A stretch of 64,000 bases of DNA, taken from positions 248,001 to 312,000 of the forward strand of contig JAHRCV010000003.1 in assembly GCA_019083985.1 (NCBI GenBank), given 5' to 3'. Made by a program: the position numbers and the translations under genes. Under the pieces are notes generated by a model. That model did no database searches. It worked only from the letters and a program-made list of their open reading frames with translations, and had not been told where the DNA came from. This stretch comes from Rhizobiales bacterium TNE-4 (lineage in GTDB: Bacteria; Pseudomonadota; Alphaproteobacteria; Rhizobiales; Beijerinckiaceae). How positions within the stretch are numbered: position 1 is the stretch's first letter; each line of letters starts with the position of its first letter. Positions 22,159 to 63,427 of the stretch are shown here, one piece after another.

Positions 22159-22329
22159 GTGCCGCACCCTAGCAAAGCGCCCGTGCCGCTGCATCGCTCA
22201 GTCTGCTGCTTTCAACGGTTTTCTCCCATCCTGCCCGGCGTCATGATCGTCTGCCTCCGCCGTTTGGCGGGTTGAGCCCGCTGGATCCAATGCTATGGTC
22301 CTGTCAAAGAGCAGGGAGTGACGGCGCCG

Positions 22330-42769: not shown

Positions 42770-44083
42770 TTAATTCTGCACCTGCTCCGCCAGGCAGCCA
42801 TCGGGTGCGGCCTTGCCGGCAAGCCGGTCGGCGATCCACGGCAGATAGAGCGGTTGCGAGGCGCCCGGCGTGGCGAAATGCGTCTTCTCACCCGCGAGCT
42901 GCATCCGCGCGACATTGCCGCCGAGTTTGCACATCCGTTCACGGTAGATTTTGTGCATGATCGGCGGTGCAACGATATCCTTCGTGCCCCAATAAATGAT
43001 GATGGGTGCGACCGGCTTCGTCGCCGTCCCCGCGCTGGCAATCAGCACATCGCCCCATGCTTTGGCATTATCGGGGTTCGGCTTGATCAGCGATGCAAAT
43101 TGGTCGCCATAGGCATAGGTGAAGGCATCGGCCGAGCCATGCACGCATTTATTCTTCAGGATCGTGTCGACTGCTTTCACGCCTTCATCGGTGAGAATGT
43201 CGCTGATTTTCAGCTTATCCGGATAGGCCGCTTGCGCGCCCCACAACACCATCGTGAAATGCGTGAAATTCGCAATGCTGCCCGAAAAGGATTTTGCGAT
43301 ATTGCCTATCATCGCCTGCGCATTGGCGTCGGTTAATCCGCCGGGCGGTGCGAGCGTGGAGAAATCGGGCGGCGCCATTGCAACGCCGCCGACAAGCTTG
43401 ATGCCATCGAAGGCTGTGCCGGTCTGGTTGATATAATCCGCCGCACTGGCAGCGGCAGTCATGGCGCTGCCGCCTTGTGACCAACCATAGACGATGGCGG
43501 TTTTGTTAGCGCCCGTCGCTTTCATGCTTCCAGCAGCACGGATCGCATCAATCGTGTCGCGCGCCTGTGTCGCGGCCAACTGATATTGATGTTTTCCACC
43601 GCCGCCGAGACCTTGATAATCGGTGGCGACGACGACATAGCCCGCCTTGATGAATTCATTGATGGCGGGAATACCGTAATCGGTCCACGAATTGCCGTTC
43701 ATCAAAAAATATTCATTCAGCGGCGCAGTCGGGTTGCCAACTTGCGAAGGGCCGCAATTCTGCGCGGTTCCGGTTGTCCCATGCGCCCATGACATAATGG
43801 GGCGGCCGCCCTTCGGCGCAGCACCGGTTGGTGCAACCACAACACCGGTCACAACGGTCTTTCTTCCTGCCATGTCGGAAGAGATGTACGCAATGCGCCA
43901 TGCCTGTGCGTTCGGTACTGCGGTGGTGATCTTTTCCTTCTTGATAATTTGGCCGAGCTTGCCGTTCGCTTTCAATTGCGTAGCAGCGGCATAGAAGGGC
44001 GGCAGATACATATCGGCCTGTGCGGCGGTGCCGCTCAATAAAAACGCGGCTGCGACACAGCCAAGCACTGATTTGATTCTCAT
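42770..44083 (-). CDS. Secreted lipase/esterase (LIP-type alpha/beta hydrolase)
   Basis: A 437-residue protein with a signal peptide (MRIKSVLGCVAAAFLLSGTA, cleaved after AQA). The nucleophile elbow is IVYGWSQGGSAM. The upstream PIMSWAHGTTGTAQNCGPS oxyanion segment and the late IIIYWGTKDIVAPP (catalytic Asp) with GEKTHFATPG (His) complete the triad. The layout fits the secretory lipase family (PF03583). The frame is open 53 codons upstream, but the signal peptide fixes ATG 44083. A strong terminator follows it. Confidence 0.86.
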   Translation of the reverse strand: MRIKSVLGCVAAAFLLSGTAAQADMYLPPFYAAATQLKANGKLGQIIKKEKITTAVPNAQAWRIAYISSDMAGRKTVVTGVVVAPTGAAPKGGRPIMSWAHGTTGTAQNCGPSQVGNPTAPLNEYFLMNGNSWTDYGIPAINEFIKAGYVVVATDYQGLGGGGKHQYQLAATQARDTIDAIRAAGSMKATGANKTAIVYGWSQGGSAMTAAASAADYINQTGTAFDGIKLVGGVAMAPPDFSTLAPPGGLTDANAQAMIGNIAKSFSGSIANFTHFTMVLWGAQAAYPDKLKISDILTDEGVKAVDTILKNKCVHGSADAFTYAYGDQFASLIKPNPDNAKAWGDVLIASAGTATKPVAPIIIYWGTKDIVAPPIMHKIYRERMCKLGGNVARMQLAGEKTHFATPGASQPLYLPWIADRLAGKAAPDGCLAEQVQN

Positions 44084-44217
44084 GATGAGGGAACCTCGGC
44101 AAAGTTGAAGTCTGAAAGAACAATCTTCAGATTGTGGCAGTTTAGATGAGTCTCTGGCGCATGGGCAGGATCCCGGCCCCAAAATGGGCTTAGCGCATAT
44201 GAGACTAATAAGCCTGA

Positions 44218-44805
44218 TTAAATTATCAGCACAAAGCAGCAAACGCCCTCATGCGTCTGAGCGCCGCATATCGTTTCTTCACAGCGTGCGTGAGGTGATA
44301 TCAATGCACGATAGAGACGTGCGAAAACAGCCGCATGCCAGCCGCACAGACATGTTTCCGCCTGTTCGCCTGCAATCAAAGGGTTATGCTCAATCTCGAA
44401 CTGCCAGGATGTGACGCGTCGAAATTGTCCGCTCCCCACAAAGGTCCATGCATGCTGCGTGATAGCGCGCGAAAGTAACCATGCGGCAATGGGCGTCGGC
44501 AGTATTTTCAGAAGAATTTGGGCAGGCTTGGGAATGCGATGCGCGAGAATGTAATCGGCCGTCCGTATCCCAGCCTCGCGTAAGATAATGGAGGCCTCAC
44601 CGGGTGCGCTGCATCGTACAGCGCGATGCAAGCTTGCAGCATCGGCTTCTGGGATCATCGCATGGCCGTCAGGCAGTGTGTGCAATCCGGCCTGATCGAG
44701 AAGGGCGCGCGCACGCTCTGCGCCAAGTTGCGCGTTCAAGATAGGCCATAATTGCAAGATGGCATTAGGACCGATGAGGTTGAAGGCATCAACCTTCATC
44801 GTCAT
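44218..44805 (-). CDS. bchJ: BchJ, bacteriochlorophyll-biosynthesis accessory protein
   Basis: This 195-residue V4R-type protein starts [20 protein letters not shown]. The segment [16 protein letters not shown], the following [21 protein letters not shown] and the C-terminal [18 protein letters not shown] are the BchJ pattern. BchJ was first called a 4-vinyl reductase, but later work assigns that step to BciA/BciB and gives BchJ a substrate-carrier or assisting role. ATG 44805 overlaps the bchE stop (ATGA). No other photosynthesis gene lies within the window, so the main cluster must be elsewhere, or be lost. Confidence 0.88.
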
Positions 44806-46427
44806 GCGTCCTGCATTTGTTCAGTGCCGCCACCGCAAGCGCGTACTTCGGCCCGTTCTTTCATTTGCGCGCGCACAGCCTCGCGACGCTCAGCCGCTTT
44901 CTGCGCTTTGTCAGCAGATGCGATCCAATCATCCATTTGTGCTTCGGCAATCTGCCGTGTTTCATCAAAATGGAAATCGACCTTGTCTTTGGTCTGTGGT
45001 CCCCAATAACCAGCCTTGCCAAGATCGTAGAAAGTGCGCCCAACGCCTGCTTTCAAAAAGGCGAAGAGGCAACCGAGCAGATAGCGCCGTCTAAAGCCGG
45101 TGCCCCGCCATGGATAATGGAACAGCGCCTTCTTCATATAAAAACGGCGATAATTGTTCATCACGCCGTCGAGGAGTTCGCCGCGCGTCATAGCCGCTGG
45201 CTTCATGATCGGTGTCACGAAATTATATTTGCTAAAGTCGAACACTTGCACCTTGTCTTTCAATTCCTGAAAGAGCGGGGTGAAAGGCCAAGGCGTATAC
45301 ATCGACCAATTGGCGAGGTCTGGCTGCCAATCCCACGCCATGCGATAGGTCTCTTCAAGCGTTTCAGGTGTTTCGTTATCGAGGCCAACGATGAATTGCG
45401 CCTCGACAAGAATGTCAGCTTCGCGCAGCAAGCGGATGGCAGTTTTGTTTTCCTCGACCTTGGTTTCCTTATTGAACTGGTCGAGTTTGAGCTGGGCTGC
45501 GGCCTCCGTGCCAAGGCTTACATGCACGAGCCCCGCTTTACGATAGAATTTCAATAAATCACGATCGCGATAAATGTCGGTCACGCGTGTGTTGATGCCC
45601 CATTTCACCTTGTCGGGTAGGCCACGCGCGATCAGCTCGTCACAAAAGGCAATGAACTTCTTTTTGTTGATGGTCGGTTCTTCATCAGCAAGGATGAAAA
45701 AGCCGACGCCGTGATTGTTGACGAGATCTTCGATCTCATCGACCACGTCTTTAGGGTCACGCACGCGATAATCGCGCCAGAATTTCCATTGCGAACAGAA
45801 AGAGCAAGTGAAAGGGCAACCGCGCGCCAGATTGGGAATGGCGACACGCGTATTGAGCGGAATGTAAATGTAGCGGCTCCAATCGAGGATCGACCAATCG
45901 GGCTTGATCGTTTTGAGATCCTTGACGGTTCCGGCCGCCGCATTGGCGACGATCTGATCGCCGTCGCGATAAGCGAGCCCTTTGATGGTGGCGCGGTCTT
46001 GGGGCCAGCGCCCGTCGCGGATCGCTTCCATCAAGGCCGTGCAGACTTCTTCGCCCTCGCCGCGCACGATCACATCGACCCATGGCGCCTCGCTCAAGAC
46101 CTGCTTGTAGAGAAAGGTCGCATGGACGCCGCCGAGAATGCGGACCGCCTGTGGCGCGACGTCGGCGGCAATCTTGAGCACATCTTCGGCGCGGTAGATC
46201 GAAGCGGTGATGGCCGTCACGCCGATGGCGTCAGGGGCCAAGGCCTTGATCCGAAGGGCAAGATCCTCGTCCGACACATTCTCCGTCATCGCATCGATGA
46301 AATGGATGTCATCGAAACCCGCCTGCCGGAGATGGCCTGACAGATAGGCGACCCACGCGGGCGGCCACGATCCCGCAATCTCGGCACCGCCGGAATGGTA
46401 ATTCGGGTGGACGAACAGAATGCGCAT
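44802..46427 (-). CDS. bchE: BchE, anaerobic Mg-protoporphyrin IX monomethyl ester cyclase
   Basis: A 541-residue B12-binding radical SAM enzyme that builds the fifth ring of (bacterio)chlorophyll without oxygen. It opens [20 protein letters not shown]. The cobalamin-binding-like domain spans about residues 1-150, and the radical SAM cluster is in [20 protein letters not shown] near residue 195. [14 protein letters not shown] and [15 protein letters not shown] are BchE-like. Two regulatory boxes (46443-46460, 46480-46493) lie directly upstream, as expected for this oxygen-controlled gene. The closest alternative is another B12-radical SAM protein, but the bchJ partner makes BchE by far the best call. 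Confidence 0.93.
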
Positions 46428-46442
46428 CGTGGTCCCCTTCGT

Positions 46443-46460
46443 TGTCCAATAAAAGTGACA
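46443..46460 (-). promoter_or_regulatory. PpsR/CrtJ box upstream of bchE
   Basis: TGTCCAATAAAAGTGACA matches TGTc-N10-gACA exactly and lies 15 bases before the bchE start codon. PpsR/CrtJ represses bch, crt and puc genes under aerobic or high-light conditions. Only one box is seen here; these repressors often bind two sites, so a second weaker site may lie further away. Confidence 0.7.
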
Positions 46461-46479
46461 CAAAGGGGCGCGTCTCTAT

Positions 46480-46493
46480 TTGCGCTAGATCAA
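46480..46493 (-). promoter_or_regulatory. FixK/FNR-type box upstream of bchE
   Basis: TTGCGCTAGATCAA fits TTG(A/C)-N6-(T/G)CAA, the site of FixK2/FnrL regulators that act when oxygen is low. It lies 52 bases upstream of the bchE ATG, close to an activator position. It is the natural partner of an oxygen-independent cyclase. Confidence 0.6.
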
Positions 46494-46662
46494 ATCCGTG
46501 GGCTTGTGGCCTCGAAGCCCCTGTTGCGGTCCGCCCCGGAAGCCTCGCGTCTGACCCGTTTTGGCAATCAAATGCAGATTTGACCCATGTTTAGCCACGC
46601 AATGGTCCAGAAATCGGGTATTGAAGAAGCTGTCTTGTCGAAAGGGAAGCTTGAGGTAAGGC

Positions 46663-49392
46663 GTGCCAGATCGCTTTCGGACCATCATGCCGCTGCCGCC
46701 TACTCTCCGTGGGCGGATCGCGCTATTGGCGAGCCTGAGCACAACGGCCATTGTCGTCTTGTTGACACTCGTCTCGGTCGTCGCGGCGATCAGCTTTGCG
46801 CGCGAACGCATGGTCGGCGAGGCGCAGTTCACAAGCCGCCTTGTTGAAGAGCGCCTGTCTCTCGTTATCGAAGGCCTGATCCGGGATGCCGTCCGCCTGT
46901 CGCGCTCGCCCATCGTTTCGACCGCGTTGATGGACACCAAGGACCGCGGCGCGGTCCTGCTGCCCTTCTTGAAAAGCCTTCAATCGGAAGCCGCCAACGC
47001 GCTCGGCGGCCAGTCCTACCTGTTCGATTATCGCGCCCGTCCGGTTCTCTCGACCGAGCAGAACATGCGTGCCGGCCCCCCGGCCGTGGCCAATATGGCC
47101 GCGCAAGCGCTCCGCGATACCAAGCCGGTGGTCGCCATCCTGCCGCCGCAACCGGGCCAGACCGATGCGCAACGCCGCCTGACAATTGCCGCGCCCGTCT
47201 CCTATCCCTACCTTGAAGGCGCCATGGGCGTGCTAGCCCAGACCTATGATTTCGGTGCCATCACCGCACCCGTGCAGCGCTATGGCGGGCGTGATTTCGC
47301 GATTTCAATTGAGCCCAGCGGCGATCAAGCAGAGCCGAGCGGTTCCGCTATCGGGCGGCTCGCTAACCAGCGCCAAATTCGCGTAGCCTATGAAGACGCA
47401 GCCCTCAATCTCACCGTCAGCCTCTATTTCGTCGGTGATCCGCTGGCTGATATTGCGCGCCAATTTACCCTCATGGGCCTTGCGGCTGCCTTGTTGCTGT
47501 CGGGGTTGAGCGCGTTCCTCGCACGGCGGTTTGCCGATCGCATTACATGGCAACTCGCGCTGTTGACGGAGGCATCGACCCGGTTTGCCGCGGGCGAACC
47601 TGTGACGCTCACGCCACGCGGCTGGTCAAGCGAATTGAAAATTTTGGCCGACACGCTCAACAGCGCCTTCATGCAACAGCGCCGTTTGATGCGTAATCTT
47701 GAACAGACGGCCGCCGTGTTCCGTTCGTCGGGCGAGGGCATCGTGGTGCTCAACCGGCATGGCCGCATTCTCGAATCCAACACGGCCTTTGAGCGCCTTG
47801 TCGAATTGACCCCGACCGATTTGATCGGACGGACATTGTGGAGCTTGCCATTCGCCGATGCGCAAGGTGCGATTGGCAATGCGTTGAAAGCGGCGCGCCG
47901 GGGCGAAGCTGTGAAACGCGAATTGCTCTTTCAAAATCAGAAGGAGGAATTGAACCTCCAGATGACATTAAGTCCGGTCGCGACAGATGATGATGACGAG
48001 ACCACCGAATATGTCTGCGTCCTCTCCGATATTACGGCGCAGAAAAATGCACAAAAAGCACTCGCCTATGTCGCGCATCACGATGGATTGACGGGCCTTT
48101 ACAACCGGAATTTCTTCGAGCGCAGTGTCGCGCGCTCCATGAGCCGCGCGTCGCGTGCAGGCGAGAAACTCGCCCTTCTCTTTCTCGATCTCGATCGTTT
48201 CAAGATCGTCAACGATGTCTTTGGCCACGCAGCAGGCGATGAGATCATTCGTGTCGTCGCTGATCGCATCCGCAATCGTTTGCGCGCGTCCGATATTGTA
48301 TCGCGTCGCGGCGGCGATGAATTTATGGTCTTGCTTGATACTGTGGCCGATCCAGAAACCGCCGTCACGCTGGCCAATGCGCTCATCGATATTGTGAATA
48401 CACCGATCACCATTGAATCGGGTGAGACAGTCACTGTGGGCGTGACGATCGGCATCAGCCTTTATCCCGATGATGCTGGTACCGTTGATGATCTCATGCG
48501 GCATGCTGATCTTGCTTTAAATTTTGCCAAAGGCGCGGGCAAAGGTCGTGCTGAACTCTTTTCATCGCATATTCGCGATATCAATAATCGTCGTTATCAG
48601 GTCGAGGCGCGGCTGCGCCATGCGCTCGATCACAGCGCGCTGACCTTCCACTATCAACCGCAGATCGATGTCGAAACCGGTCTGATCTCAGGTTTCGAGG
48701 CGCTTCTGCGTTGGACCGATGACGAGCTTGGTCCCGTTCCCGCGAGTGAAGCAACAAGCGTTGCGGAAGATAGCGGGCTCATGCCGCGGCTTACGGAAGC
48801 CATGCTGATGCAGACCATGCGCGACACAGGGCACATCATCCGCGAGAATGGCGATCAGTTACGCCTGGCTGTCAATTTCTCCGCGAATGATTGCGCTGAA
48901 AACAATATCGTCGAGCGCATCGAACGGATTGCCGCAATCAATAATTTCCCGCTTGATCGTCTGGAAATCGAAGTCACGGAAACCGTTCTTGCCGGGGATC
49001 AACCGCAAGCCATCGAAACGCTCACTGAACTGCGTGAACGTGGTGTCGAGATCGCGATTGACGATTTCGGTGTTGGTTATTCATCCTTGAGCCGGCTCCA
49101 ACGTTTGCCGGTTACACGTCTCAAGATCGACAGTTCTTTTGTGTCGGGCTTGCCGAGCGATCGGGATTCCGATGGCATTATCAACGCCATCGTTACCATC
49201 GCTGATTCACTCGGCATGACAACCTTGGCCGAAGGTGTTGAGACGAAGGCGCAGTTCGATGCACTCAAACGTCTGCGCTGCCATTCCGTTCAAGGATATT
49301 ATTTTGCGCGCGCTCTCTCAATCGACGCATTGCGCGCGTACGTCTTCGAAGTCAACGCGGCAAAATGCACGCTTCCCGCAAAGGTTTCGTGA
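46663..49392 (+). CDS. Membrane GGDEF-EAL protein with Cache-type sensor and PAS
   Basis: This 909-residue protein has a TM helix (about 20-45), a periplasmic region of about 220 residues (dCACHE-like) and a second TM (about 270-290). After the TM come a HAMP-like linker (TLTPRGWSSELKILADTLN) and a PAS domain (GEGIVVLNRHGRILESNTAF). The GGDEF domain has the intact RRGGDEFMVLLD, and the EAL domain has SGFEALLRWTDDE and DDFGVGYSSLSRL. Both motifs are complete, so it may both make and break c-di-GMP. GTG 46663 has the better ribosome-binding site (GAGGTAAGG); ATG 46687 is possible. A binding-protein gene follows after 35 bases. Confidence 0.92.
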   Translation: MPDRFRTIMPLPPTLRGRIALLASLSTTAIVVLLTLVSVVAAISFARERMVGEAQFTSRLVEERLSLVIEGLIRDAVRLSRSPIVSTALMDTKDRGAVLLPFLKSLQSEAANALGGQSYLFDYRARPVLSTEQNMRAGPPAVANMAAQALRDTKPVVAILPPQPGQTDAQRRLTIAAPVSYPYLEGAMGVLAQTYDFGAITAPVQRYGGRDFAISIEPSGDQAEPSGSAIGRLANQRQIRVAYEDAALNLTVSLYFVGDPLADIARQFTLMGLAAALLLSGLSAFLARRFADRITWQLALLTEASTRFAAGEPVTLTPRGWSSELKILADTLNSAFMQQRRLMRNLEQTAAVFRSSGEGIVVLNRHGRILESNTAFERLVELTPTDLIGRTLWSLPFADAQGAIGNALKAARRGEAVKRELLFQNQKEELNLQMTLSPVATDDDDETTEYVCVLSDITAQKNAQKALAYVAHHDGLTGLYNRNFFERSVARSMSRASRAGEKLALLFLDLDRFKIVNDVFGHAAGDEIIRVVADRIRNRLRASDIVSRRGGDEFMVLLDTVADPETAVTLANALIDIVNTPITIESGETVTVGVTIGISLYPDDAGTVDDLMRHADLALNFAKGAGKGRAELFSSHIRDINNRRYQVEARLRHALDHSALTFHYQPQIDVETGLISGFEALLRWTDDELGPVPASEATSVAEDSGLMPRLTEAMLMQTMRDTGHIIRENGDQLRLAVNFSANDCAENNIVERIERIAAINNFPLDRLEIEVTETVLAGDQPQAIETLTELRERGVEIAIDDFGVGYSSLSRLQRLPVTRLKIDSSFVSGLPSDRDSDGIINAIVTIADSLGMTTLAEGVETKAQFDALKRLRCHSVQGYYFARALSIDALRAYVFEVNAAKCTLPAKVS

Positions 49393-52976: not shown

Positions 52977-54479
52977 ATGGAACAATTGGTCGATAATCTT
53001 GCGCTTGGTTTTTCCACGGCGCTCAGTCTCAAAAATATTGGACTTTGCTTTTTGGGGTGCCTCGTCGGCACGTTGATTGGCGTTTTGCCGGGTGTCGGTC
53101 CGATCGCAACGATTGCAATGCTCTTGCCCGTCACGTTCGGCATTGATCCGACGGGTGCGCTCATCATGCTTGCCGGCATTTATTACGGCGCACAATATGG
53201 TGGCTCGACGACGGCCATCCTCGTCAACATTCCCGGCGAAGCGACCAGCGTGGTCACGACACTTGATGGTCATCAAATGGCGCGGGCTGGTCGCGCCGGC
53301 GTGGCGCTGGGCATCGCAGCCATTGCTTCCTTCATCGCTGGTTGCATCGCCACGCTGGTGATCGCAGCGTTGGGCGAGCCGCTCACCAAGCTCGCGCTTC
53401 TGTTCGGCCCAGCTGAATATTTCTCGCTGATGGTGATGGGGCTCGTCTTTGCAGTCGTGCTCGCACGCGGCTCGTTGCCGAAGGCGATTGCGATGATCGT
53501 GGTTGGCCTCTTGCTCTCCACAGTCGGCACTGACCTTGAAACGGGACAAGAGCGTCTCACCTTCGGCATCGCTGAATTGTCCGATGGTGTCGATTTCGCT
53601 GTGCTGGCGATGGGGATTTTCGGTTTCGCTGAAATTATTCGCAATCTCGAAAATCCTGAAACGCGTGACGTGGTGCGCGGCAAGATTGGCCGTCTTCTGC
53701 CAAGCAAGGATGATTTCAAACAGGCGCTCGCGCCGATCCTGCGTGGCACGGGCTTGGGTGCCATTCTCGGGATTTTGCCGGGCAATGGTGCCGTGCTGGG
53801 TCCGTTCGCGTCCTACACGCTCGAAAAGAAGATCACGAAAGATCCGTCACGTTTTGGTCGTGGTGCCATCGAAGGTGTGGCTGGTCCTGAAGCGGCGAAT
53901 AATGCGGGTGCGCAAACCGCCTTCATTCCTCTGCTCACCCTTGGTATTCCGCCGAATGCCGTGATGGCGCTGATGGTGGGTGCGATGACCATTCATGGCA
54001 TCATTCCCGGCCCACAGGTCGTGACCAAGAACCCGCAGCTTTTCTGGGGCATGATCGCCTCGATGTGGGTTGGCAATTTGATGCTGCTTGTCATCAACCT
54101 GCCACTGGTCGGGCTCTGGGTGCGCCTTCTCAAGGTGCCCTATAGCCTTCTCTACCCAGCGATCCTGCTGTTCTGCTGCATCGGCATCTATTCGATCAAT
54201 AATTCGACATCGGACGTGATCTTCACGGCGTTTTTCGGCCTGGTTGGCTATGCCCTGCTTAAATTCGGCTATGAGCCAGCCCCTCTGCTACTCGGCTTCG
54301 TGCTGGGCAAGCTGATGGAGGAGAAGCTGCGACAAGCTCTCATCTTGTCACGCGGCAGTTTTGCCACATTTGTGGAGCGACCTGTTTCGGGTGGATTGTT
54401 GCTGGTGGCTGCCATCATGCTGGCCATTGCGCTGCTGCCGTCGATCCGCAAGGGCCGCGACGAAGTGTTCACGGAATGA
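52977..54479 (+). CDS. tctA: TctA-family large permease subunit
   Basis: This 500-residue protein has about 12 helices. The family motifs GVLPGVGPIATIAMLLP, YGAQYGGSTTAILVNIPGE and the second-half GILPGNGAVLGPFASY are present, with GVAGPEAANNAGAQTAFIPL. It forms the transmembrane channel of the TTT transporter for citrate-like carboxylates or other acids. The order B-A-C is complete here. Confidence 0.96.
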   Translation: MEQLVDNLALGFSTALSLKNIGLCFLGCLVGTLIGVLPGVGPIATIAMLLPVTFGIDPTGALIMLAGIYYGAQYGGSTTAILVNIPGEATSVVTTLDGHQMARAGRAGVALGIAAIASFIAGCIATLVIAALGEPLTKLALLFGPAEYFSLMVMGLVFAVVLARGSLPKAIAMIVVGLLLSTVGTDLETGQERLTFGIAELSDGVDFAVLAMGIFGFAEIIRNLENPETRDVVRGKIGRLLPSKDDFKQALAPILRGTGLGAILGILPGNGAVLGPFASYTLEKKITKDPSRFGRGAIEGVAGPEAANNAGAQTAFIPLLTLGIPPNAVMALMVGAMTIHGIIPGPQVVTKNPQLFWGMIASMWVGNLMLLVINLPLVGLWVRLLKVPYSLLYPAILLFCCIGIYSINNSTSDVIFTAFFGLVGYALLKFGYEPAPLLLGFVLGKLMEEKLRQALILSRGSFATFVERPVSGGLLLVAAIMLAIALLPSIRKGRDEVFTE

Positions 54480-54526
54480 CGCCACGTGCGCGGAAGCAAT
54501 AACAAGAACTTAAAAGGGAGAATGCC

Positions 54527-55501
54527 ATGAAATCCATGCTCTCGGCTCTCGGGCTGGCGACCGTTCTCGCGGCCAGCCCGGCTTGGGCCCAGTCCTATCC
54601 CGCCAAGCCCATCACGATGATTGTGCCGTTTGCGGCAGGCGGTCCGACCGACGTGATCGCGCGCATCGTCGCCGATAACATGTCCAAAACGCTCGGCCAG
54701 CAGATCGTTGTCGAAAATGTCGCCGGTGCGGGCGGCACCACGGGTACGACGCGCGCCGCGCAGTCCGCGCCCGATGGCTACACTATCATGATGGGCCATA
54801 TGGGTACGCATGGCGCAGCGCCAGCACTCTATCCTAATCTGAAATATGATCCGTCGAAGGATTTCGAACCGATCGGCATGGCCGCAGGCACGCCGATCCT
54901 GATCGTGGCGAAGAAGAATTTCCCCGCCAAAGATCTGAAGGAATTCCTCGCCAAGGCCAAAGCGGATGGTGACAAGATCAACGAAGCGCATGCCGGCATC
55001 GGCTCCGTCTCGCACACCACCTGCCTTCTCCTGAATGCGCAGGCCGGCCTCAAGCCGACGCAGGTTCCCTATAAGGGCACAGGCCCGGCGCTGAACGATC
55101 TTGTCTCCGGTCAGGTCGATTTCATGTGCGACCAGATCGTTAATCTCGTCGAGCAGATCAAGGGCGGCAATATCAAGGCTTATGCGATTGCAACGCCTGA
55201 GCGTTCACCTGCTTTGCCAGACGTTCCGACAACGAAGGAAGCGGGCCTGCCTGAATATCAAGTCAGTGCATGGAACGCGGTTTTCGCACCGAAGGGCACG
55301 CCGAAGGATATCACCGCGAAGCTGAACGACGCGCTCGGCAAGGCTTTGGCCGATGAGAACACGCGCAAGCGTCTGCTCGAGCTTGGCGCTGTCCTGCCGG
55401 ACAAGGCGGGTCAGACGCAGGATGCGCTCGGCACCTTCGTCGCGCAGGAAGTCGCGCGCTGGACGCCGGTGATCAAGGCTTCGGGCGCGGTTGCCCAGTA
55501 A
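54527..55501 (+). CDS. tctC: TctC (Bug-family) periplasmic binding protein
   Basis: A 324-residue protein with a signal peptide (MKSMLSALGLATVLAASPAW, cut after AQS-type AWA). The Bug signature YPAKPITMIVPFAAGGPTDV follows directly. AGAGGTTGTTRAAQSAPDG and the domain-2 VPYKGTGPALNDLVSG are typical. It delivers a carboxylate to TctAB. AAAAGGGAG lies seven bases before the ATG. A terminator follows at 55528. The substrate could be tricarboxylate, but Bug proteins also bind amino acids and aromatic acids. Confidence 0.95.
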   Translation: MKSMLSALGLATVLAASPAWAQSYPAKPITMIVPFAAGGPTDVIARIVADNMSKTLGQQIVVENVAGAGGTTGTTRAAQSAPDGYTIMMGHMGTHGAAPALYPNLKYDPSKDFEPIGMAAGTPILIVAKKNFPAKDLKEFLAKAKADGDKINEAHAGIGSVSHTTCLLLNAQAGLKPTQVPYKGTGPALNDLVSGQVDFMCDQIVNLVEQIKGGNIKAYAIATPERSPALPDVPTTKEAGLPEYQVSAWNAVFAPKGTPKDITAKLNDALGKALADENTRKRLLELGAVLPDKAGQTQDALGTFVAQEVARWTPVIKASGAVAQ

Positions 55502-56140: not shown

Positions 56141-56476
56141 ATGGTTGTTCCTTCTCCCCCGTCCAACCCGGCTTTTCCGGCTGAGACTGCTGCACTCGTA
56201 TTTGAAAATTTTGAACGGCTGCAGCGGGCCTATCGGATCGACATTGCCTCCTGGTTCCTGCTCACCAGCGTCTATTTCAGCAATATTCGCGACTCGAGCC
56301 GGACCATGTTGGCGCTGACGCCTGTGAGCGCCATTGAATTGGCGCGGATCACAGGTCTGTCGCGCGAGACGGTGCGCCGCAAATTGCAGGTCCTGTTGCA
56401 CAAGGGCCTTGTGCGCAAGATCAACCGCTCCTGGGTGGTGACCGATCTGTGCGTTCATGGCAGTCGCGCATCCTAA
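56141..56476 (+). CDS. Solitary winged-helix (Crp-like) regulator 2
   Basis: A 111-residue protein (MVVPSPPSNPAFPAETAALV) that shares its architecture with regulator 1: a helical lead (NFERLQRAYRIDIASWFLLT) and a winged helix (ELARITGLSRETVRRKLQVLLHKGLVR). The frame is open upstream to 55829, but that part is unlike protein. It overlaps the end of the btuD-like gene by 4 bases on the opposite strand. Two divergent paralogues suggest a heterodimer or cross-regulating pair; no target is known. Confidence 0.72.
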   Translation: MVVPSPPSNPAFPAETAALVFENFERLQRAYRIDIASWFLLTSVYFSNIRDSSRTMLALTPVSAIELARITGLSRETVRRKLQVLLHKGLVRKINRSWVVTDLCVHGSRAS

Positions 56477-57258
56477 GCCTCGCGTTCCATCGAGCGTGCC
56501 GCCCATGGTAAGATTGCGCGGACACCGTCGCGTTCAAAGCTGACAATCTCAACGCCAAACACCGCGCCGAGTTGCTCAGGCGTCAACACTGCAGCGGGTG
56601 CTCCATCGGCGGCGATCGCACCCTTGTCCATCAGGATGATGCGGTCGGCGAAACGCGCGGCCAACGCCAGATCGTGCAAGACAACAATCACAAGGCGGTT
56701 CGCGCGCGCTTGGGCTTGCAAGGTTTCCATCACGCTCAGCTGATGGCGCGGATCAAGCGCCGATACAGGCTCATCGGTGAGCAGAATGGGTGCTTCCACC
56801 GCAAGCGCGCGTGCGAGAAACGCACGTGCCTGTTCGCCTCCCGAAAGCGTGGTGATGTCGCGATCGGCCAAAGCGTCGAGATCGCACGCGCTGAGCGCTT
56901 GGGCGATGGCCATGTCATCGCGTGCTGTCAGGCTATCGAGCGTCGCGCCGTGCGGCATACGCCCAAGCGCAACCACTGAGCGTACCGCCAGCGGCCAGAC
57001 CGCCTGTCCTGTTTGCGGCAACCAGCCAATGGTGCGCGCACGTGCGACCGGCGACAGGACATTCAGCGCCTGTCCGTCGAGCGTGATGCTTTTGGTTTTG
57101 AGAAGCCCCGCAAGCGCGCGCAGCAAAGTCGATTTGCCAGCCCCGTTCGGCCCCAGAATGCAAATCAGTTCGCCGCTCTGTGCAGCAAAATCGATCCCCT
57201 TCAGCACAATACGGCCGCCAAGCGAAACGGTGAGATCGTGCGCCGCGAGCTCTGTCAT
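56473..57258 (-). CDS. btuD: ABC ATPase for B12/siderophore-type uptake (BtuD/FecE-like)
   Basis: This 261-residue ATPase has Walker A GPNGAGKST near residue 36, signature TTLSGGEQARAF, Walker B APILLTDEPVSALDP and the H-loop VVLHDLALAARF. It powers the FecCD-type permease encoded just upstream, with which it overlaps by 4 bases. Riboswitch control of the operon argues for B12 or a cobamide as ligand. ATG 57258 fixes the start. Confidence 0.9.
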   Translation of the reverse strand: MTELAAHDLTVSLGGRIVLKGIDFAAQSGELICILGPNGAGKSTLLRALAGLLKTKSITLDGQALNVLSPVARARTIGWLPQTGQAVWPLAVRSVVALGRMPHGATLDSLTARDDMAIAQALSACDLDALADRDITTLSGGEQARAFLARALAVEAPILLTDEPVSALDPRHQLSVMETLQAQARANRLVIVVLHDLALAARFADRIILMDKGAIAADGAPAAVLTPEQLGAVFGVEIVSFERDGVRAILPWAARSMEREA

Positions 57259-58259
57259 GATGCATCCGCCGCAATCGCACCGCGCCGCCGCGCAATAATG
57301 GCAAGGAAGAATGGTACGCCCATCAAGGCCGTCAGCGCACCGACTTTGAGTTCGGTCGGTGCAGGCACAAGACGCGCCAGCATATCGGCACTGAGCGTGA
57401 GCGCGGCGCCCACCAAGGCAGCCGGCAATAACACCGCTTTCGGATCGCCCTTCACTGCATCGCGCACAAGATGGGGTGCAACGAGCCCGACAAATCCTAT
57501 TGCGCCTGAAACTGAGACCGCCCCGCCCAGTGCGCACGCCACACCAAGCACGATCAGAATGCGCTCCCGCACCAAAGACAGGCCGAGACTTTCTGCAGTC
57601 TCTTCGCCAAGGGTCAAAGCGCGCAAGGGTTCGCCCGCGCGCAGAAGAAGAAGCGAGCCAATCACCATGAAAGGTGCGGCCATCGCAACGTGGCGAAACG
57701 AACGATCTTCGAATGATCCCAATAACCAGAATACGATTTCGGTCACAGCGAACGGATTGGCAGAGAGATTGATCACGATCGATGTGAGCGCTGCTGCAAG
57801 GCTCGCAACCGCGAGCCCTGCCAAAATCAATGTGGTGACACCGGCAACGCGACCGGCAACGGCTAAGACCAGCAACACCGACAATAACGCGCCGCCGAGC
57901 GCTGCTACCGGCAACGCAAATGAAAGCGCCTCCACAGTCCCCGTATAAAGGACGAGGACCGCGCCAAGCGCAGCCGCTTGGGGTGCGCCGAACAAGGCTG
58001 GATCAGCGAGTGGATTACGCAAAAGGCCTTGCAAGGCTGCGCCCGACAGGCCGAGCACGAAGCCAACGCTCAACGCCAGCAATGTCCGCGGCAAGCGAAT
58101 GTCATAGATGATCAGTGCTGCCGTCTGATCTTGCCGGATGAAGCCTTTGATCAGATCGATCCATGATAAGGAGACCGATCCGATCATGAGCGACGCGCAA
58201 GTGAGCGCAACGAGAAGGATGATGAGCGCCGGTACAAGACGGACGGCGCGCATCGTCAT
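57255..58259 (-). CDS. btuC: FecCD-family permease (BtuC-like)
   Basis: A 334-residue inner-membrane permease with about ten helices. RLPRTLLALSVGFVLGLSGAALQGLLRNPLADP is the family core (seen here as RLPRTLLALSVG and GLLRNPLADPALFG), and GAIGFVGLVAPHLVR is the second. It works with the ATPase downstream and the TonB receptor upstream. The start codon is one base after the receptor's stop codon. No gene for a periplasmic binding protein (BtuF) is in the operon; it must be elsewhere. Confidence 0.92.
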   Translation of the reverse strand: MTMRAVRLVPALIILLVALTCASLMIGSVSLSWIDLIKGFIRQDQTAALIIYDIRLPRTLLALSVGFVLGLSGAALQGLLRNPLADPALFGAPQAAALGAVLVLYTGTVEALSFALPVAALGGALLSVLLVLAVAGRVAGVTTLILAGLAVASLAAALTSIVINLSANPFAVTEIVFWLLGSFEDRSFRHVAMAAPFMVIGSLLLLRAGEPLRALTLGEETAESLGLSLVRERILIVLGVACALGGAVSVSGAIGFVGLVAPHLVRDAVKGDPKAVLLPAALVGAALTLSADMLARLVPAPTELKVGALTALMGVPFFLAIIARRRGAIAADAS

Positions 58260-58260
58260 C

Positions 58261-60237
58261 TTACCAGCTCGCCTTCAGGCCAGCATAAATCGCCCGGCCT
58301 GATGTGCCATAGCTATACACTTCCTGATACTGCGCATTGGTCAGGTTTTCAGCGCGCAGATAGGCGGTGAAATGATCGTTGAATTTATAACGCGCCCACA
58401 TATCAAGCCGCGCATAGGGGGCGAGCGTCACATTGCCGTAATCGAGCTGTGATCCGACCAGATAAAGCTGCGCTTCAATCTCAGTGTTGGTGATGCCGGT
58501 ATAGATGGCACTCAAACTGCCGCGATTGCGTGGACGGCGCAGCAATTGCGAATCCGTATCGAGATTTTCGCCATAGAGGTAAGTATAGCTGCCTTTGACG
58601 AGCCATTGGCCCGGTACAAGATTATACTTGGCTGACGCTTCGACACCGGAGATCAGCGCGCGTCCCACATTGTAATAGACGCAGCTGAAACCCGCGCAGG
58701 TAAAATCGATCAAATTGCGATAGCGCGACCAGAACGCTGTGCCCGAAAGAACAAGGCGGCCATCAAGCAGCGATTGGTCGATACCGGCATCCACACCAAT
58801 ATTATGTTCCGGTTGCAAAGCCGGCAGATCATTCGCGATCGGCCCATAGGCCGAATACATCTGATAGAGCGAGGGTGCCTTCGCGCCAGTCCCAACGCTT
58901 GCGCGCAGTTTTGTCGTTGTCGTGAGATCGTAGGCGGCCGTGCCGCGCCACGTCCAGAAATTGTCGACGCTTTCGACGCTGTCAACACGACCGCCCACGG
59001 TGAACGACCATTGCTCGGTCGGGGTCCATTGCAGTGTCGAGAACGCCGAATTTGTCACTTGGTTGGCGTCGACATCAATCGTGGCGAGTGATGCGTTGCG
59101 TGGCACCGGCCCGGTCATGCTTTTGGCCGTTTCGGTCTCGTTACGCAGGCCGGTGATCAGGAAGAAGTTATTGTTGATCTTGAAATTGTTCTGAAGCTCT
59201 GCCCCATAACGCTGCCCGCTATAATCATTCGAAGCGAAATAGGGCCCATAAGATGAGGACCAATCATTGATCGAATTGCGATCGGTGCGGTTGCCAAACA
59301 GGTTCAGGGTCGTCGTCATCCGGCCGTCGAGCCCGTCAACCGCACCCTTCGCCCAGAATTGATTGGTGAAGGCGCGCTGCCGGTTGAGTGTCACATCGGC
59401 AAAGCTGATGTCCGCAGGTGTTGCGCCAGGCGATGCACCATTGTCGTAATGCACATTCGACCAGAAACCGAGATAACCCGCTTCAAGACTGACACCATTG
59501 CCATTGGCCCAGCCCAAGCGCGCGCTGCCATTGATTTTTTGCGCCGGATCATTGTCGAACGGGCCGAACGCTGCGTAGCGGCCGATACGATAACCGAAGC
59601 TTGAAAAACCGTCGGTACGGAGGCCGTTCAGCGAAAAGGCATAATTGAAATCGCCATAGGAGCCTGTAAGCGCTGCACGCGCGAGGGCGGTTCCATAAGA
59701 TCCGCCTTCAACGGTCAGCGAGGCTTTGGGATTGCCCGCGCCTTTGCGTGTCACGATGTTGATCACGCCGCCCATCGCGTCCGAACCGTAAAGCGCTGAT
59801 TGTGGTCCGCGCAGAATTTCGATGCGCTCGATATCCGATGGCGAGTAACCGCCAAAATCGAAATCACCCGCGATCGAGGACGGATCGCCAATGCGAACGC
59901 CATCGATCATCACCAAGGTCTGGCTCGGCTTCGAACCGCGCAGCGTGATCGAGGTGTTGCCGCCAATCCCACCCCGTTCGGAGACGAACACCCCTTCGAC
60001 GGGACGCAGCACATCGGCGATACTTTTGGCGGCTTTGTTCTCGATTTCTTCACGGGTGATGACGGTCACCGAGGAACCGGTTTTCGCCACCGCTTGCGGA
60101 GCGCGCAGCGGCGTCACCACAATTTCGTTGGATGAGGGCGCATCCTGCAATTGGGCGAAGGCGGGTGTGGAGAGCGCGGCGATAGCCGCAATGAAGGGAG
60201 GCCGCAGAAGCGGCAAAAAGCGCGTTGGCGCAGTCAT
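58261..60237 (-). CDS. btuB: TonB-dependent outer-membrane receptor, BtuB-like
   Basis: This 658-residue beta barrel has a signal peptide (MTAPTRFLPLLRPPFIAAIA..., ending AFA). A TonB-box-like NEIVVTPLRAPQ follows the signal peptide. The plug shows GSSVTVITREEIENKAAKS and SDIERIEILRGPQSALYGSD, and the barrel ends in the aromatic YAGLKASW. ATG 60237 is chosen over 60300, because the longer frame would lie in the riboswitch. Its leader carries a cobalamin riboswitch, so cobalamin or a related corrinoid is the likely cargo. Confidence 0.93.
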   Translation of the reverse strand: MTAPTRFLPLLRPPFIAAIAALSTPAFAQLQDAPSSNEIVVTPLRAPQAVAKTGSSVTVITREEIENKAAKSIADVLRPVEGVFVSERGGIGGNTSITLRGSKPSQTLVMIDGVRIGDPSSIAGDFDFGGYSPSDIERIEILRGPQSALYGSDAMGGVINIVTRKGAGNPKASLTVEGGSYGTALARAALTGSYGDFNYAFSLNGLRTDGFSSFGYRIGRYAAFGPFDNDPAQKINGSARLGWANGNGVSLEAGYLGFWSNVHYDNGASPGATPADISFADVTLNRQRAFTNQFWAKGAVDGLDGRMTTTLNLFGNRTDRNSINDWSSSYGPYFASNDYSGQRYGAELQNNFKINNNFFLITGLRNETETAKSMTGPVPRNASLATIDVDANQVTNSAFSTLQWTPTEQWSFTVGGRVDSVESVDNFWTWRGTAAYDLTTTTKLRASVGTGAKAPSLYQMYSAYGPIANDLPALQPEHNIGVDAGIDQSLLDGRLVLSGTAFWSRYRNLIDFTCAGFSCVYYNVGRALISGVEASAKYNLVPGQWLVKGSYTYLYGENLDTDSQLLRRPRNRGSLSAIYTGITNTEIEAQLYLVGSQLDYGNVTLAPYARLDMWARYKFNDHFTAYLRAENLTNAQYQEVYSYGTSGRAIYAGLKASW

Positions 60238-60274
60238 ATCAACCTCGAACCGTCCCACCGACGGCGTTGGCGTG

Positions 60275-60470
60275 ATATGTCGGCCGGTCTCCTGGCTCAC
60301 GGGTCACGGCCTTAAAACCCCTTCCCGGATCATCAAGATCCAGTGGTAACGGTTTCAGGCTCGCCGCTCACAGTTGCGGGGGCAGCTGCGGACTAGGGAC
60401 AAGGTCCCGCACCGCATTCCCAGTTTCACCCCCACCACGGGGGCACCGACAAGGTGGTTGAACCTTAGAC
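60275..60470 (-). promoter_or_regulatory. Cobalamin riboswitch in the btuB leader
   Basis: On the minus strand the leader holds GCTGCCCCCGCAACTGTGAG (the conserved core, about 60365-60385) and the B12 box AGCCAGGAGACCGGCC (about 60282-60297). Upstream is the characteristic GGTGAAACTGGGAATGCGGTG. The order and spacing are those of the alphaproteobacterial cobalamin riboswitch. A small hairpin (CCGTCGGTGGGACGG) sits between it and the start codon and may act on ribosome access. It should shut down receptor synthesis when B12 is abundant. Confidence 0.95.
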
Positions 60471-60525: not shown

Positions 60526-61197
60526 TCATTCCCCTACGAGCACGATATGGACCGAGCGCGGCCCATGCGCGCCGAGCAGCAATTTCTGTTCGATATCGCC
60601 CGAGCGGGAAGGTCCTGTGATCCAATTCACTGTACGCGGCATGTGGCCTTTGCCATCGCGCTCACGAATGCGTTGCCAGACATCTTCATACGAGCCGCGC
60701 ACATCTTTCGCATCGACCACGACGATCGCGTAGTCGGGAAGGAAGTTCAAAGTAGAGGGATTGTCCGGCCCCGATGTCATGATCAGCGTGCCTGTCTCGG
60801 CCACACCGGCGAAGGCGTGATTGACGGCCACGAGATCGCCGCCATCGCTCTTGCCATGCGAGATTTCAAGCGCGGTCTTGTCCCATGGCATGCCGGCAAG
60901 GCGTTCATCTGCGCCCATCCGCAGGCGCGCCGGCAAATTCGTCCGGCGCAGAAAATCAGCGATCGCTTCCGGCACGGCCGCGCGATCTTTCACGCGGTCA
61001 ATCGTGGCAAGCGTGGCTTTCGCCTGCTCTTCAAAAAGGGCCAGTAATGCTTCGCCCGAAAGATGGCCGCGCTCCGGCACGATACCGCGCGGCGCTTTCG
61101 CGATGCGTTCGTTCACCGCTTCACGCCGCGGCTGCTCTTTTCCCGTCACGCCGAGCGAACGACGCACCGAACCGAATATTTCTTCACGCGCGCTCAT
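60526..61197 (-). CDS. lutC: LutC subunit of the L-lactate oxidation complex
   Basis: This 223-residue LUD-domain protein (YkgG) begins MSAREEIFGSVRRSLGV. The family core VAETGTLIMTSGPDNPSTLNFLPD and the terminal GAHGPRSVHIVLVGE are clear. LutABC converts L-lactate to pyruvate. It overlaps lutB by 4 bases and is the last gene of the operon. Confidence 0.94.
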   Translation of the reverse strand: MSAREEIFGSVRRSLGVTGKEQPRREAVNERIAKAPRGIVPERGHLSGEALLALFEEQAKATLATIDRVKDRAAVPEAIADFLRRTNLPARLRMGADERLAGMPWDKTALEISHGKSDGGDLVAVNHAFAGVAETGTLIMTSGPDNPSTLNFLPDYAIVVVDAKDVRGSYEDVWQRIRERDGKGHMPRTVNWITGPSRSGDIEQKLLLGAHGPRSVHIVLVGE

Positions 61198-62624
61198 GCC
61201 TTCGCTCCCTTGCGGGCTTTCCATTGTTCTTGGAACGTGCCGCCTTGTGGCGCGGGGAAATCACGGTAATCCGTCCATCCGCCTGCGAAGGGAAGCGATG
61301 TGAATTTGCCCTTGTCGCGCCCGAACCAAGCGAGCGCCTTCATGCCGAGATTGCTTGCGAAACGATAAAGCATCGGGCGCTTGGCAAAGAAGGCCCACAC
61401 GCCAAGACCTGACCGCACAGTGGCGGGCGTGAGGTGGCGTTCGAATTCCTGCTCGCGCCAATGCCGCATCATTTTCGGCAAGGGAATGCGCACAGGGCAG
61501 ACGCTTTCGCAGCGGCCGCAGAAGGTTGATGCATTCGGCAGATGGCCCGCTTTATCAACGCCAATCAAAGACGGCGATAACACGGCGCCCATCGGCCCGG
61601 GATAGACCCAGCCATACGCATGCCCGCCGACAGCGTGATAAACAGGGCAATGATTCATGCAAGCGCCGCAGCGGATGCAGCGCAGCATGTCTTGGAACGA
61701 AGTGCCAAGCATTGCCGAGCGGCCATTGTCGAGCACGACGACGTGATATTCTTCCGGCCCGTCTACATCGCCGGGACGGCGCGGACCGGTCGAAAATGTC
61801 GTATAGACGCTCATTTCCTGCCCGGTCGCCGAACGTGCAAGCACGCGCAGGATTTGCGATACGTCATCAAGCGTCGGCACGAGCTTTTCAATCGACGCAA
61901 TCACGATATGGATTTTCGGCAAAATCTGCGTGAGATCGCCATTGCCCTCATTGGTGACGATCACTGAGGTGCCTGTTTCGGCGATCAGAAAATTCGCACC
62001 CGTAATGCCAACATCGGCGGCGAGGAATTTTTCGCGCAAAACTTGGCGTGCTTCGGTGAGGAGCTGGACCGGCTCAGAAAGATCACGGTTCGGATCAAGA
62101 TGCGTATGCACGCGGCGGAAATCACTTTCTACCTGCGTCGCATTCAAATGTACGGCTGGCGCGATGATGTGGGACGGTGCTTCATTGCGCAGCTGAATGA
62201 TGTATTCACCCAGATCGGTTTCAACCGGCGTCATGCCGGCCGCTTCGATCGCAGCATTCAGATTGATCTCTTCCGAGATCATCGACTTGCCTTTGGTAAC
62301 GGTTTTGGCGCCCGCCTTACGGCAAATATCGACAATGGCTTGGCGGGCTTCTTCCGCCGTACGCGCCCAATGCACATGCCCGCCCGCATCCTGAACTTTG
62401 TTTTCCCATTTCTCGAGATAGAGATCGAGATTGGCGAGCGTGTGATTTTTGATGTCGCGCGCACTGTCGCGTAGCGCCTCGAATTCTGGCAGCTTTGCCG
62501 CCACAGCGGCGCGCTTGTCGATGAAGCCTTGGCGCACATTGGAGAGCGCCATCTGGAGCTGCTCGTCCTTCAGCGCCTCATGCGCATTCTCTTTGAAATA
62601 AGGAGAGGTGGGATGCGCGGTCAT
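61194..62624 (-). CDS. lutB: LutB iron-sulfur subunit of the L-lactate oxidation complex
   Basis: A 476-residue protein with an N-terminal LUD-like domain (ITGANFLIAETGTSVIVTNE) and two 4Fe-4S motifs: CIRCGACMNHCPVYHAVGG near residue 310 and CGRCESVCPVRIPLPKM near residue 365. It passes electrons from lactate oxidation. It overlaps lutA and lutC by 4 bases each, so the three proteins are made together. Confidence 0.95.
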   Translation of the reverse strand: MTAHPTSPYFKENAHEALKDEQLQMALSNVRQGFIDKRAAVAAKLPEFEALRDSARDIKNHTLANLDLYLEKWENKVQDAGGHVHWARTAEEARQAIVDICRKAGAKTVTKGKSMISEEINLNAAIEAAGMTPVETDLGEYIIQLRNEAPSHIIAPAVHLNATQVESDFRRVHTHLDPNRDLSEPVQLLTEARQVLREKFLAADVGITGANFLIAETGTSVIVTNEGNGDLTQILPKIHIVIASIEKLVPTLDDVSQILRVLARSATGQEMSVYTTFSTGPRRPGDVDGPEEYHVVVLDNGRSAMLGTSFQDMLRCIRCGACMNHCPVYHAVGGHAYGWVYPGPMGAVLSPSLIGVDKAGHLPNASTFCGRCESVCPVRIPLPKMMRHWREQEFERHLTPATVRSGLGVWAFFAKRPMLYRFASNLGMKALAWFGRDKGKFTSLPFAGGWTDYRDFPAPQGGTFQEQWKARKGAKA

Positions 62625-63427
62625 CGTGTCTTCTCCTGACCGTTCGGCGCGCCGATCGGCGGCACATCCGTCATGCCTGCAAGCACTTCGGCCACATGGC
62701 GCACGGCGATGGTCGAACCCATGCGTGAGAGTTTGCCTGCCATGTTCATCAGGCAGCCAAGATCGCCTGCAATCAACATGTCAGGCTCGGCCGCTTCAAT
62801 GTTTTCGGCTTTTTTCGTCACGATGGAATCGGAAATCTCGCCATATTTAACAGCGAACGTGCCACCAAAGCCGCAGCACACTTCGTTTTCGTTCATCTCC
62901 GTGAGGTGCAATCCCTCAACCGATTGCAGCAGCAGGCGCGGCTGTTTTTTCACGCCGAGTTCGCGCAGGCCCGAGCAGGAATCGTGATAGGTCGCGGTCC
63001 CCGAGATAGACGCATCGACTTTCCGTACGCCAAGCACGTCGACGAGGAAGCTCGTCAATTCATAGGTCTTTTCGGCGATCTCATCGGCACGCCGCGCGAG
63101 GTTCGGGTCATGCTTGAAGAGTTCGGGATAATGTTTGCGCACCTGTCCCGCGCAGGAGCCAGAGGGCGCCACGATATAATCATAGCCCTCAAACGCCGTG
63201 ATCATCTGTTCGGCCAAAGCGCGCGCGGTATCGCGGTCACCGGAGTTGAAGGCGGGCTGCCCGCAGCAGGTCTGGGATGGCACTTCGACGATGCAGCCGG
63301 CATCTTCGAGCAGCTTGGCGGTGGCCATGCCGATCGAGGGGCGCATCAAATCGACGAGGCAGGTGGCAAACAGGGCCACGCGCGGCGGACGGGATGAGGT
63401 GGGTGCGGCCAAAAGGGCCTCCTTCAA
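62621..63427 (-). CDS. lutA: LutA (CCG-domain) subunit of the L-lactate oxidation complex
   Basis: This 268-residue protein has two CCG domains typical of GlpC/HdrB-like proteins: SQTCCGQPAFNSGD near residue 53, and NEVCCGFGGTFAVKYGE near residue 192. YHDSCSGLRELGV and the APSGSCAGQVRKH stretch carry further Cys residues. It is the first gene of lutA-lutB-lutC. No lactate permease or LutR-like regulator is beside it. The promoter is probably in the 144 bases shared with the DUF3422 gene. Confidence 0.94.
   Translation of the reverse strand: MKEALLAAPTSSRPPRVALFATCLVDLMRPSIGMATAKLLEDAGCIVEVPSQTCCGQPAFNSGDRDTARALAEQMITAFEGYDYIVAPSGSCAGQVRKHYPELFKHDPNLARRADEIAEKTYELTSFLVDVLGVRKVDASISGTATYHDSCSGLRELGVKKQPRLLLQSVEGLHLTEMNENEVCCGFGGTFAVKYGEISDSIVTKKAENIEAAEPDMLIAGDLGCLMNMAGKLSRMGSTIAVRHVAEVLAGMTDVPPIGAPNGQEKTR

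Follow-up and report, generated by a model that had tools for sequence, protein, structure and literature searches.

The available text of earlier studies documents control of bchE by FnrL and PpsR/CrtJ (PMC4263372, PMC4344238, PMC2908626, PMC5362033). ChIP detects FnrL, as well as PpsR or CrtJ, at bchE of R. sphaeroides and R. capsulatus (PMC4263372, PMC2908626, PMC4344238, PMC5362033), R. sphaeroides bchEJ is listed in a table of PpsR sites (PMC4344238), and CrtJ peaks stand at R. capsulatus bchE (PMC5362033). With G or C in place of the T of the TCAA half-site at -57 of R. sphaeroides bchE, reporter activity fell by about 90% when driven by FnrL and by 70-80% when driven by CrpK; FnrL activation of this gene was reported from reporter fusions only and not from global expression data (PMC4263372). 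The FixK2 box of Bradyrhizobium diazoefficiens is given as TTGA/C-N6-T/GCAA (PMC9104804, PMC6710368). The bchEJ pair lies outside the photosynthesis cluster in Dinoroseobacter shibae (Dshi_2637/2636) and Roseobacter litoralis (PMC6052148, PMC12654162); a D. shibae bchE::Tn mutant kept bacteriochlorophyll yet accumulated MPE, and an acsF::Tn mutant was yellow with MPE (PMC10890935).

We describe here a bchE-bchJ pair in the window, by which we mean the whole 64,000-nt stretch of DNA analysed, from a genome of 3.17 Mb that is 98.84% complete. The evidence makes it very probable that this pair is a standalone low-oxygen operon beside AcsF, activated by FixK, repressed by PpsR and acquired from outside the host's family. 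The features of the locus are:

42770..44083, minus strand: secretory-lipase-like gene (PF03583, 59.6 bits); downstream neighbor, probably outside the unit
44218..44805, minus strand: bchJ, 195 aa (TIGR02019, 168 bits, cut-off 74)
44802..46427, minus strand: bchE, 541 aa (TIGR02026, 830 bits, cut-off 481, profile positions 1-497 of 497)
46443..46460, minus strand: PpsR/CrtJ-type box, TGTC-N10-GACA (TGTCCAATAAAAGTGACA; on the bchE strand TGTCACTTTTATTGGACA), -33 to -16 from the ATG
46480..46493, minus strand: FixK-type box, TTGC-N6-TCAA (TTGCGCTAGATCAA; on the bchE strand TTGATCTAGCGCAA), -66 to -53 from the ATG
46663..49392, plus strand: PAS-GGDEF-EAL (c-di-GMP) gene, divergent neighbor of bchE

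The two genes overlap by 4 nt, bchJ with the end of bchE. BchE carries B12-binding and Radical_SAM domains (Pfam), and C204, C208 and C211 of its CxxxCxxC radical SAM motif are invariant in the four rows aligned; oxygen-independent cyclase activity is predicted. BchJ contains a V4R domain (32.3 bits, cut-off 31). The preliminary description of this DNA had named both genes, with a lipase and a c-di-GMP gene at their sides, and all four are in place, the two Bch proteins scoring above the curated NCBIfam cut-offs. The lipase-like gene has three more matches in the genome (48-56% identity, one with an internal stop). Elsewhere in the window, a cobalamin riboswitch (60265-60465, Rfam 123 bits) precedes genes for a TonB-dependent receptor, a FecCD permease and an ABC ATPase (56473-60465). 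The best match of the receptor is the B12-receptor model, below its cut-off, and the group, some 10 kb from bchE, is likely an operon for the uptake of B12, which BchE requires. The window also holds tripartite tricarboxylate transporter genes (TctA, TctC; 52977-55501) and lactate-utilization-like genes (LUD-domain protein, LutB type and cysteine-rich-domain protein; 60526-63427).

The photosynthesis cluster of the host occupies one stretch of contig C1, with AcsF, BchL, BchM, BchH, BchG, BchP, BchX, BchC and PpsR (TIGR02040, 374 bits) recognized by NCBIfam models, and pufLM. The expectation that the genome would encode the rest of the pathway, with bchEJ placed away from the main cluster, thus agrees with the assembly; the presence of AcsF and the acquired look of bchEJ lay beyond what the preliminary description could see. 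With a PpsR gene in the genome and TGT-N12-ACA before it, bchE is a predicted PpsR target. AcsF is present in 11 of the 11 pufLM-bearing genomes compared. Across 397 genomes of the family, pufLM occurs in 125 (E up to 1e-30) and BchE in 35 (E up to 1e-100), 32 of these 35 being also among the 125 when counted from the two lists, and BchE is therefore a minority companion of the reaction centre in this family. Cyclase distribution among phototrophic Proteobacteria is reportedly the subject of a 2013 paper. One family genome, G216, has two bchE matches (C41:56574-58181 and C37:2548-4152), 71% and 64% identical to that of the window, and a further genome keeps bchE (L112, G058:C63:49597-51206) with its pufLM matches in four pieces. 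Within the host's cluster we counted 7 PpsR-type boxes (3.5 expected, shuffle maximum 10), 5 of which stand by eye before or between gene starts, and 5 FNR-type boxes (10.2 expected); with counts near or below those of shuffles, neither box type is enriched there by number alone.

Read on the bchE strand, the upstream layout is TTGATCTAGCGCAA-N19-TGTCACTTTTATTGGACA-N15-ATG, with the ATG at 46427, the PpsR-type box lying 15 nt and the FixK-type box 52 nt before it at a start-to-start offset of 33 nt. The PpsR box had been described correctly to the base, as TGTC-N10-GACA 15 nt before the start codon; for the FixK/FNR box called perfect along with it, the position (52 nt) and the fit to FixK2 stand, whereas the fit to FNR/FnrL fails at the GCAA half. 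Dinucleotide shuffling of the 110 nt before the ATG (20,000 shuffles) produced the strict PpsR box in 0.02%, the FNR-type box in 3.5% and both in none. Over the 64-kb window the strict PpsR pattern occurs twice, where 0.64 occurrences are expected and 13 of 100 shuffles give at least two, and TTG-N8-CAA has 19 matches where 19.8 are expected; neither motif is rare by itself. The pair at its spacing is what is specific. The second strict TGTC-N10-GACA lies at 21490-21507, within the open frame 19447-22194, and is probably there by chance. We searched three same-genus genomes (that of the window, G001 and G002) for the two-box block TTGA-N7-CAA-N(17-21)-TGT-N12-ACA and found exactly one match in each, always at bchE, while the reversed pattern gave no match in the three. 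Both boxes are thus kept at the same offset in G001 and G002, bearing out their proposed conservation in sister species, and chance can be rejected as the source of the pair on the shuffles and on the single block per same-genus genome. A sigma-70 scan of 44000-46700 returned no promoter-like site (1.5 expected), which is compatible with dependence on an activator, though it proves nothing.

We further compared bchE promoters among relatives, using 108 upstream regions that were nearest to the query or came from the family (L103, whose start is missing, was left out). Dropping two identical ones left 106 distinct regions. Of the confirmed bchE loci, which number at least 544, the best 80 were taken, so distant bchE genes are under-sampled. 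An FNR-type box stands at -55 to -95 in 98/106 regions against 0.9 in mononucleotide shuffles, and a PpsR-type box at -18 to -95 in 85/106 against 1.6, counts that are not independent because the rows are related. At the patterns used, the FNR-type box was not found in 8/106 promoters and the PpsR-type box in 21/106; among those failing a pattern are G006 (whose PpsR box is one base off), a series of family genomes (L216-L224) and 6 of the 7 Sphingomonadales. The PpsR box lies downstream of the FNR box in 63 of the 106 promoters and overlaps it in 37, both states occurring in 19. In 57 promoters with the downstream arrangement, the window's among them, the offset between the boxes is 33 nt in 40, 32 in 8, 34 in 4, 52 in 4 and 30 in 1. 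A TGTCAA half-site common to both boxes was found in 37/106 (for example L069, L071, L076 and L088, 54-63 nt before bchE), and repressor and activator would therefore compete there for the same bases. In several rows a second PpsR box follows the shared half-site 7-8 bp further on. The quick BchE tree requires 19 changes for the overlap state and 17 for the downstream state, indicating that both layouts arose or vanished often.

Detachment from the cluster is common among these loci: we saw no recognizable cluster gene near bchEJ in 53/81, or in 42/64 where the flank is at least 13 kb, in a survey with 25 query proteins of the loci nearest to the query, in which clusters beyond about 6 kb would be missed and further cluster gene names were read by eye. 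The sister species G002 (79% complete) shows the pair in decay, with bchE broken by deletions and a stop between the same neighbors as in the window and bchJ reduced to a weak 144-nt match; AcsF and pufLM are still there. Its dead bchE (L029:1433-1843) keeps both boxes intact. Identity is still 75% over 358 nt, starting 193 nt ahead of the ATG and reaching into codon 54, which makes the decay look recent. We do not favor reuse of the kept boxes as a promoter by the lipase, given this identity over 358 nt and the recent look of the decay; the lipase-like gene is not at this place in G001. The PAS-GGDEF-EAL gene adjoins bchE or its relic in all three same-genus genomes. Species G002 would have lost bchE after the genus had gained it, a course that the trees support.

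The case for acquisition comes from two sets of trees, built on loci chosen by closeness to the query. The PufLM tree has 43 rows (3 of 30 genomes, which lack pufLM, the genome with broken pufLM and the near-duplicate L131 were left out); a careful BchE tree used 51 of 109 rows and a quick one all 109. In the PufLM tree the window, G001, G002 and a further family member, G006, are joined at 100/100, apart from Rhodobacterales (100/99), and the family as a whole is scattered (6 changes). In the careful BchE tree the window and G001 group with Aquibium, the nearest row (92/91), inside a 16-row set (96/96) made up of 6 Rhodobacterales, 5 Sphingomonadales, 3 other Hyphomicrobiales and the genus, and the BchE of G006 lies in a separate family clade; the corresponding set of the 109-row tree has 32 rows, 17 of them Rhodobacterales. 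The BchE tree thus contradicts the pufLM tree, and bchEJ was therefore probably acquired from outside the family. The genus probably gained bchE from outside the family's main BchE lineage and did not inherit it with its pufLM. Two more family genomes, G305 and G388, carry bchE from the Rhodobacterales-rich side. We found no empty site or mobile element; among 41 genomes, neither the neighboring lipase gene (at E up to 1e-60) nor the GGDEF-EAL gene (at E up to 1e-150) had a match outside the genus. A plasmid search gave no plasmid link for the bchEJ locus, its nearest BchE being 83% identical (Rhodobacteraceae bacterium SC52).

Which protein reads the activator box is the main point at which another reading has some weight. 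TTGATCTAGCGCAA fits the FixK2 consensus TTGA/C-N6-T/GCAA and is perfect for FixK2, not for FNR/FnrL (TTGA-N6-TCAA), since GCAA replaces TCAA in one half, both in the window and in G002. The base that matches the -57 T of R. sphaeroides is here a G, at -56, as in 8 of 98 bchE promoters with an FNR-type box. The host encodes FixK-like, receiver-only, FixJ-like and FixL-like proteins in a row (C1:75-78 kb), in keeping with the fixK gene looked for in the genome. The first of these has FixK2 4i2o as its best solved-structure match (94 bits), and the FixL-like protein matches solved FixL kinase and heme-PAS chains. The FixK, FixJ and FixL models are also the best NCBIfam matches of these proteins, and we keep the names as "-like" because all three are below the equivalog cut-offs (130/300, 194/255 and 339/850 bits for FixK, FixJ and FixL). 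The FixK-like protein (L145:1483-2205) carries Thr at the position of residue 183 in chain 4i2o, counted on the alignment. That the box is instead a true FNR/FnrL or other CRP-family site, with FixK not the activator, is unlikely: FNR-type boxes do stand here in FnrL-bearing groups such as Tateyamaria (FnrL 391 bits, above cut-off), the box of G001 has the TCAA form and a second CRP-family protein is encoded in the window's genome, but the FnrL model finds nothing above its cut-off of 300 bits in that genome, its sole match being the FixK-like protein itself (112 bits), which by sequence lacks the N-terminal cysteine cluster, and the window's box has G where FnrL needs T. The best FnrL-model match in G001 reaches 107 bits, and the model gave none in G002; this genome being 79% complete, FixK may there be unassembled or lost along with bchE.

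The other readings concern the genes rather than the box. The first is vertical inheritance of bchEJ, followed by a simple move away from the family's cluster. In its favor, G006, the PufLM sister, carries bchE and pufLM about 35 kb apart on the same contig, and G021 has a bchE of the family type with no cluster gene in the flank examined. Against this, the BchE tree places G006, with 12 more family rows, apart from the genus. In the AU test, a tree constrained to unite the window, G001 and G006 is worse by 261 log units (p 1.25e-73; G006 was named for this test after the PufLM tree), and one uniting the window and G001 with 13 family rows is worse by 62 (p 0.004), six family rows lying elsewhere (L129, L199, L200, L202-L204) having been left out of that second test. 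The BchJ identities agree with the BchE tree on acquisition: among the 23 other loci listed with a BchJ match, 11 are at 52-58% identity to the window, all on the same side as its BchE, 10 at 37-49%, and G006 and G021 at 35%. On the AU tests and BchJ identities we reject vertical inheritance on present data, considering it quite improbable. A silent remnant on its way out is slightly less credible still, for although bchE is dead in G002 and BchJ identity between the window and G001 is as low as 60-64%, both boxes are intact and BchE is 96% identical to that of G001 (dN 0.033 at dS 1.37). BchE is thus under strong purifying selection in this comparison, and constraint on BchJ is far weaker (about 60% against 96% identity). 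Least probable by far is a BchE-like B12 radical SAM enzyme with another job: the superfamily is broad and 22 of 41 relatives have some match, yet the BchE model scores 830 bits against 143 for the next best, HpnR, and the gene stands with bchJ behind a promoter of the photosynthesis type, in a pufLM-bearing genome.

Returning to an acquired bchEJ operon run by FixK and PpsR, we propose the following course of events. The host is an anoxygenic phototroph of the same genus as the MAG Beijerinckiaceae bacterium ZLKRG43, in which low oxygen would lead FixL-FixJ to raise FixK, which would bind at -66 to -53 and recruit RNA polymerase. Class II activator sites are placed by the -41.5 rule, and such a layout would put the bchE transcript start near -18. 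In oxygen, PpsR bound at -33 to -16 would cover the region of the predicted -10 element and transcript start and so keep the promoter shut. BchE would close ring E using B12 and SAM, with no need of oxygen, and bchEJ would provide a second ring-E cyclase for low oxygen, standing in for the oxygen-dependent AcsF of the cluster when oxygen is scarce. Bacteriochlorophyll synthesis under dual redox control, as first put forward, is supported by the regulator and bch genes present and by the kept boxes, the control itself being predicted; light control may be supposed by analogy with the behavior of PpsR elsewhere. More tentatively, and at somewhat less than even chances, bchEJ may be portable and self-regulated: genes and promoter, the latter with its near-fixed box offset, would have passed together between orders of Alphaproteobacteria, to be run by the FnrL or FixK of each host, with small base changes (TCAA to GCAA here) adapting the box.

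If the operon arose and works as proposed, an oxygen-free pigment route would be a single small unit that a phototroph with an oxygen-dependent one can gain and lose again. The genus offers a natural comparison of two intact copies and one dead copy with its boxes kept, and the T-to-G change in the activator box is a sharp test case for activator exchange after gene acquisition. The enzymes, the dual regulation and detached bchEJ are already known elsewhere. In the accessible portions of the open-licence literature we found nothing on a transfer of bchEJ together with its promoter between orders, on the half-site common to both boxes or on a bchE under FixK control.

As far as the available text of the cited papers goes, the bchEJGP operon of R. 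sphaeroides and R. capsulatus resembles the host's locus in having bchE then bchJ, an FNR-family activator box whose 3' half lies at about -57, and PpsR/CrtJ sites. It differs in that bchEJ lies there in the cluster with bchG and bchP under the activators FnrL/CrpK, whereas the host has the pair alone with a FixK-type box. D. shibae and R. litoralis share the detached bchEJ, with AcsF in the cluster for D. shibae (PMC6052148, PMC12654162, PMC10890935). They are Rhodobacterales, whereas the window's host belongs to the Hyphomicrobiales and its pair looks imported. In B. diazoefficiens the likeness lies in the FixK2 box, whose consensus accommodates the TTGA-N6-GCAA of the host (PMC9104804, PMC6710368); FixK2 has a redox Cys at residue 183 of 4i2o, in contrast to the Thr of the host's FixK-like protein. 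Bradyrhizobium bchEJ and Gemmatimonas bchE, finally, are similar in their patchy presence within a genus, as far as the portions of those reports at hand describe it (PMC10569730, PMC7844134), whereas here a sister species shows the decaying copy, boxes included, still in place.
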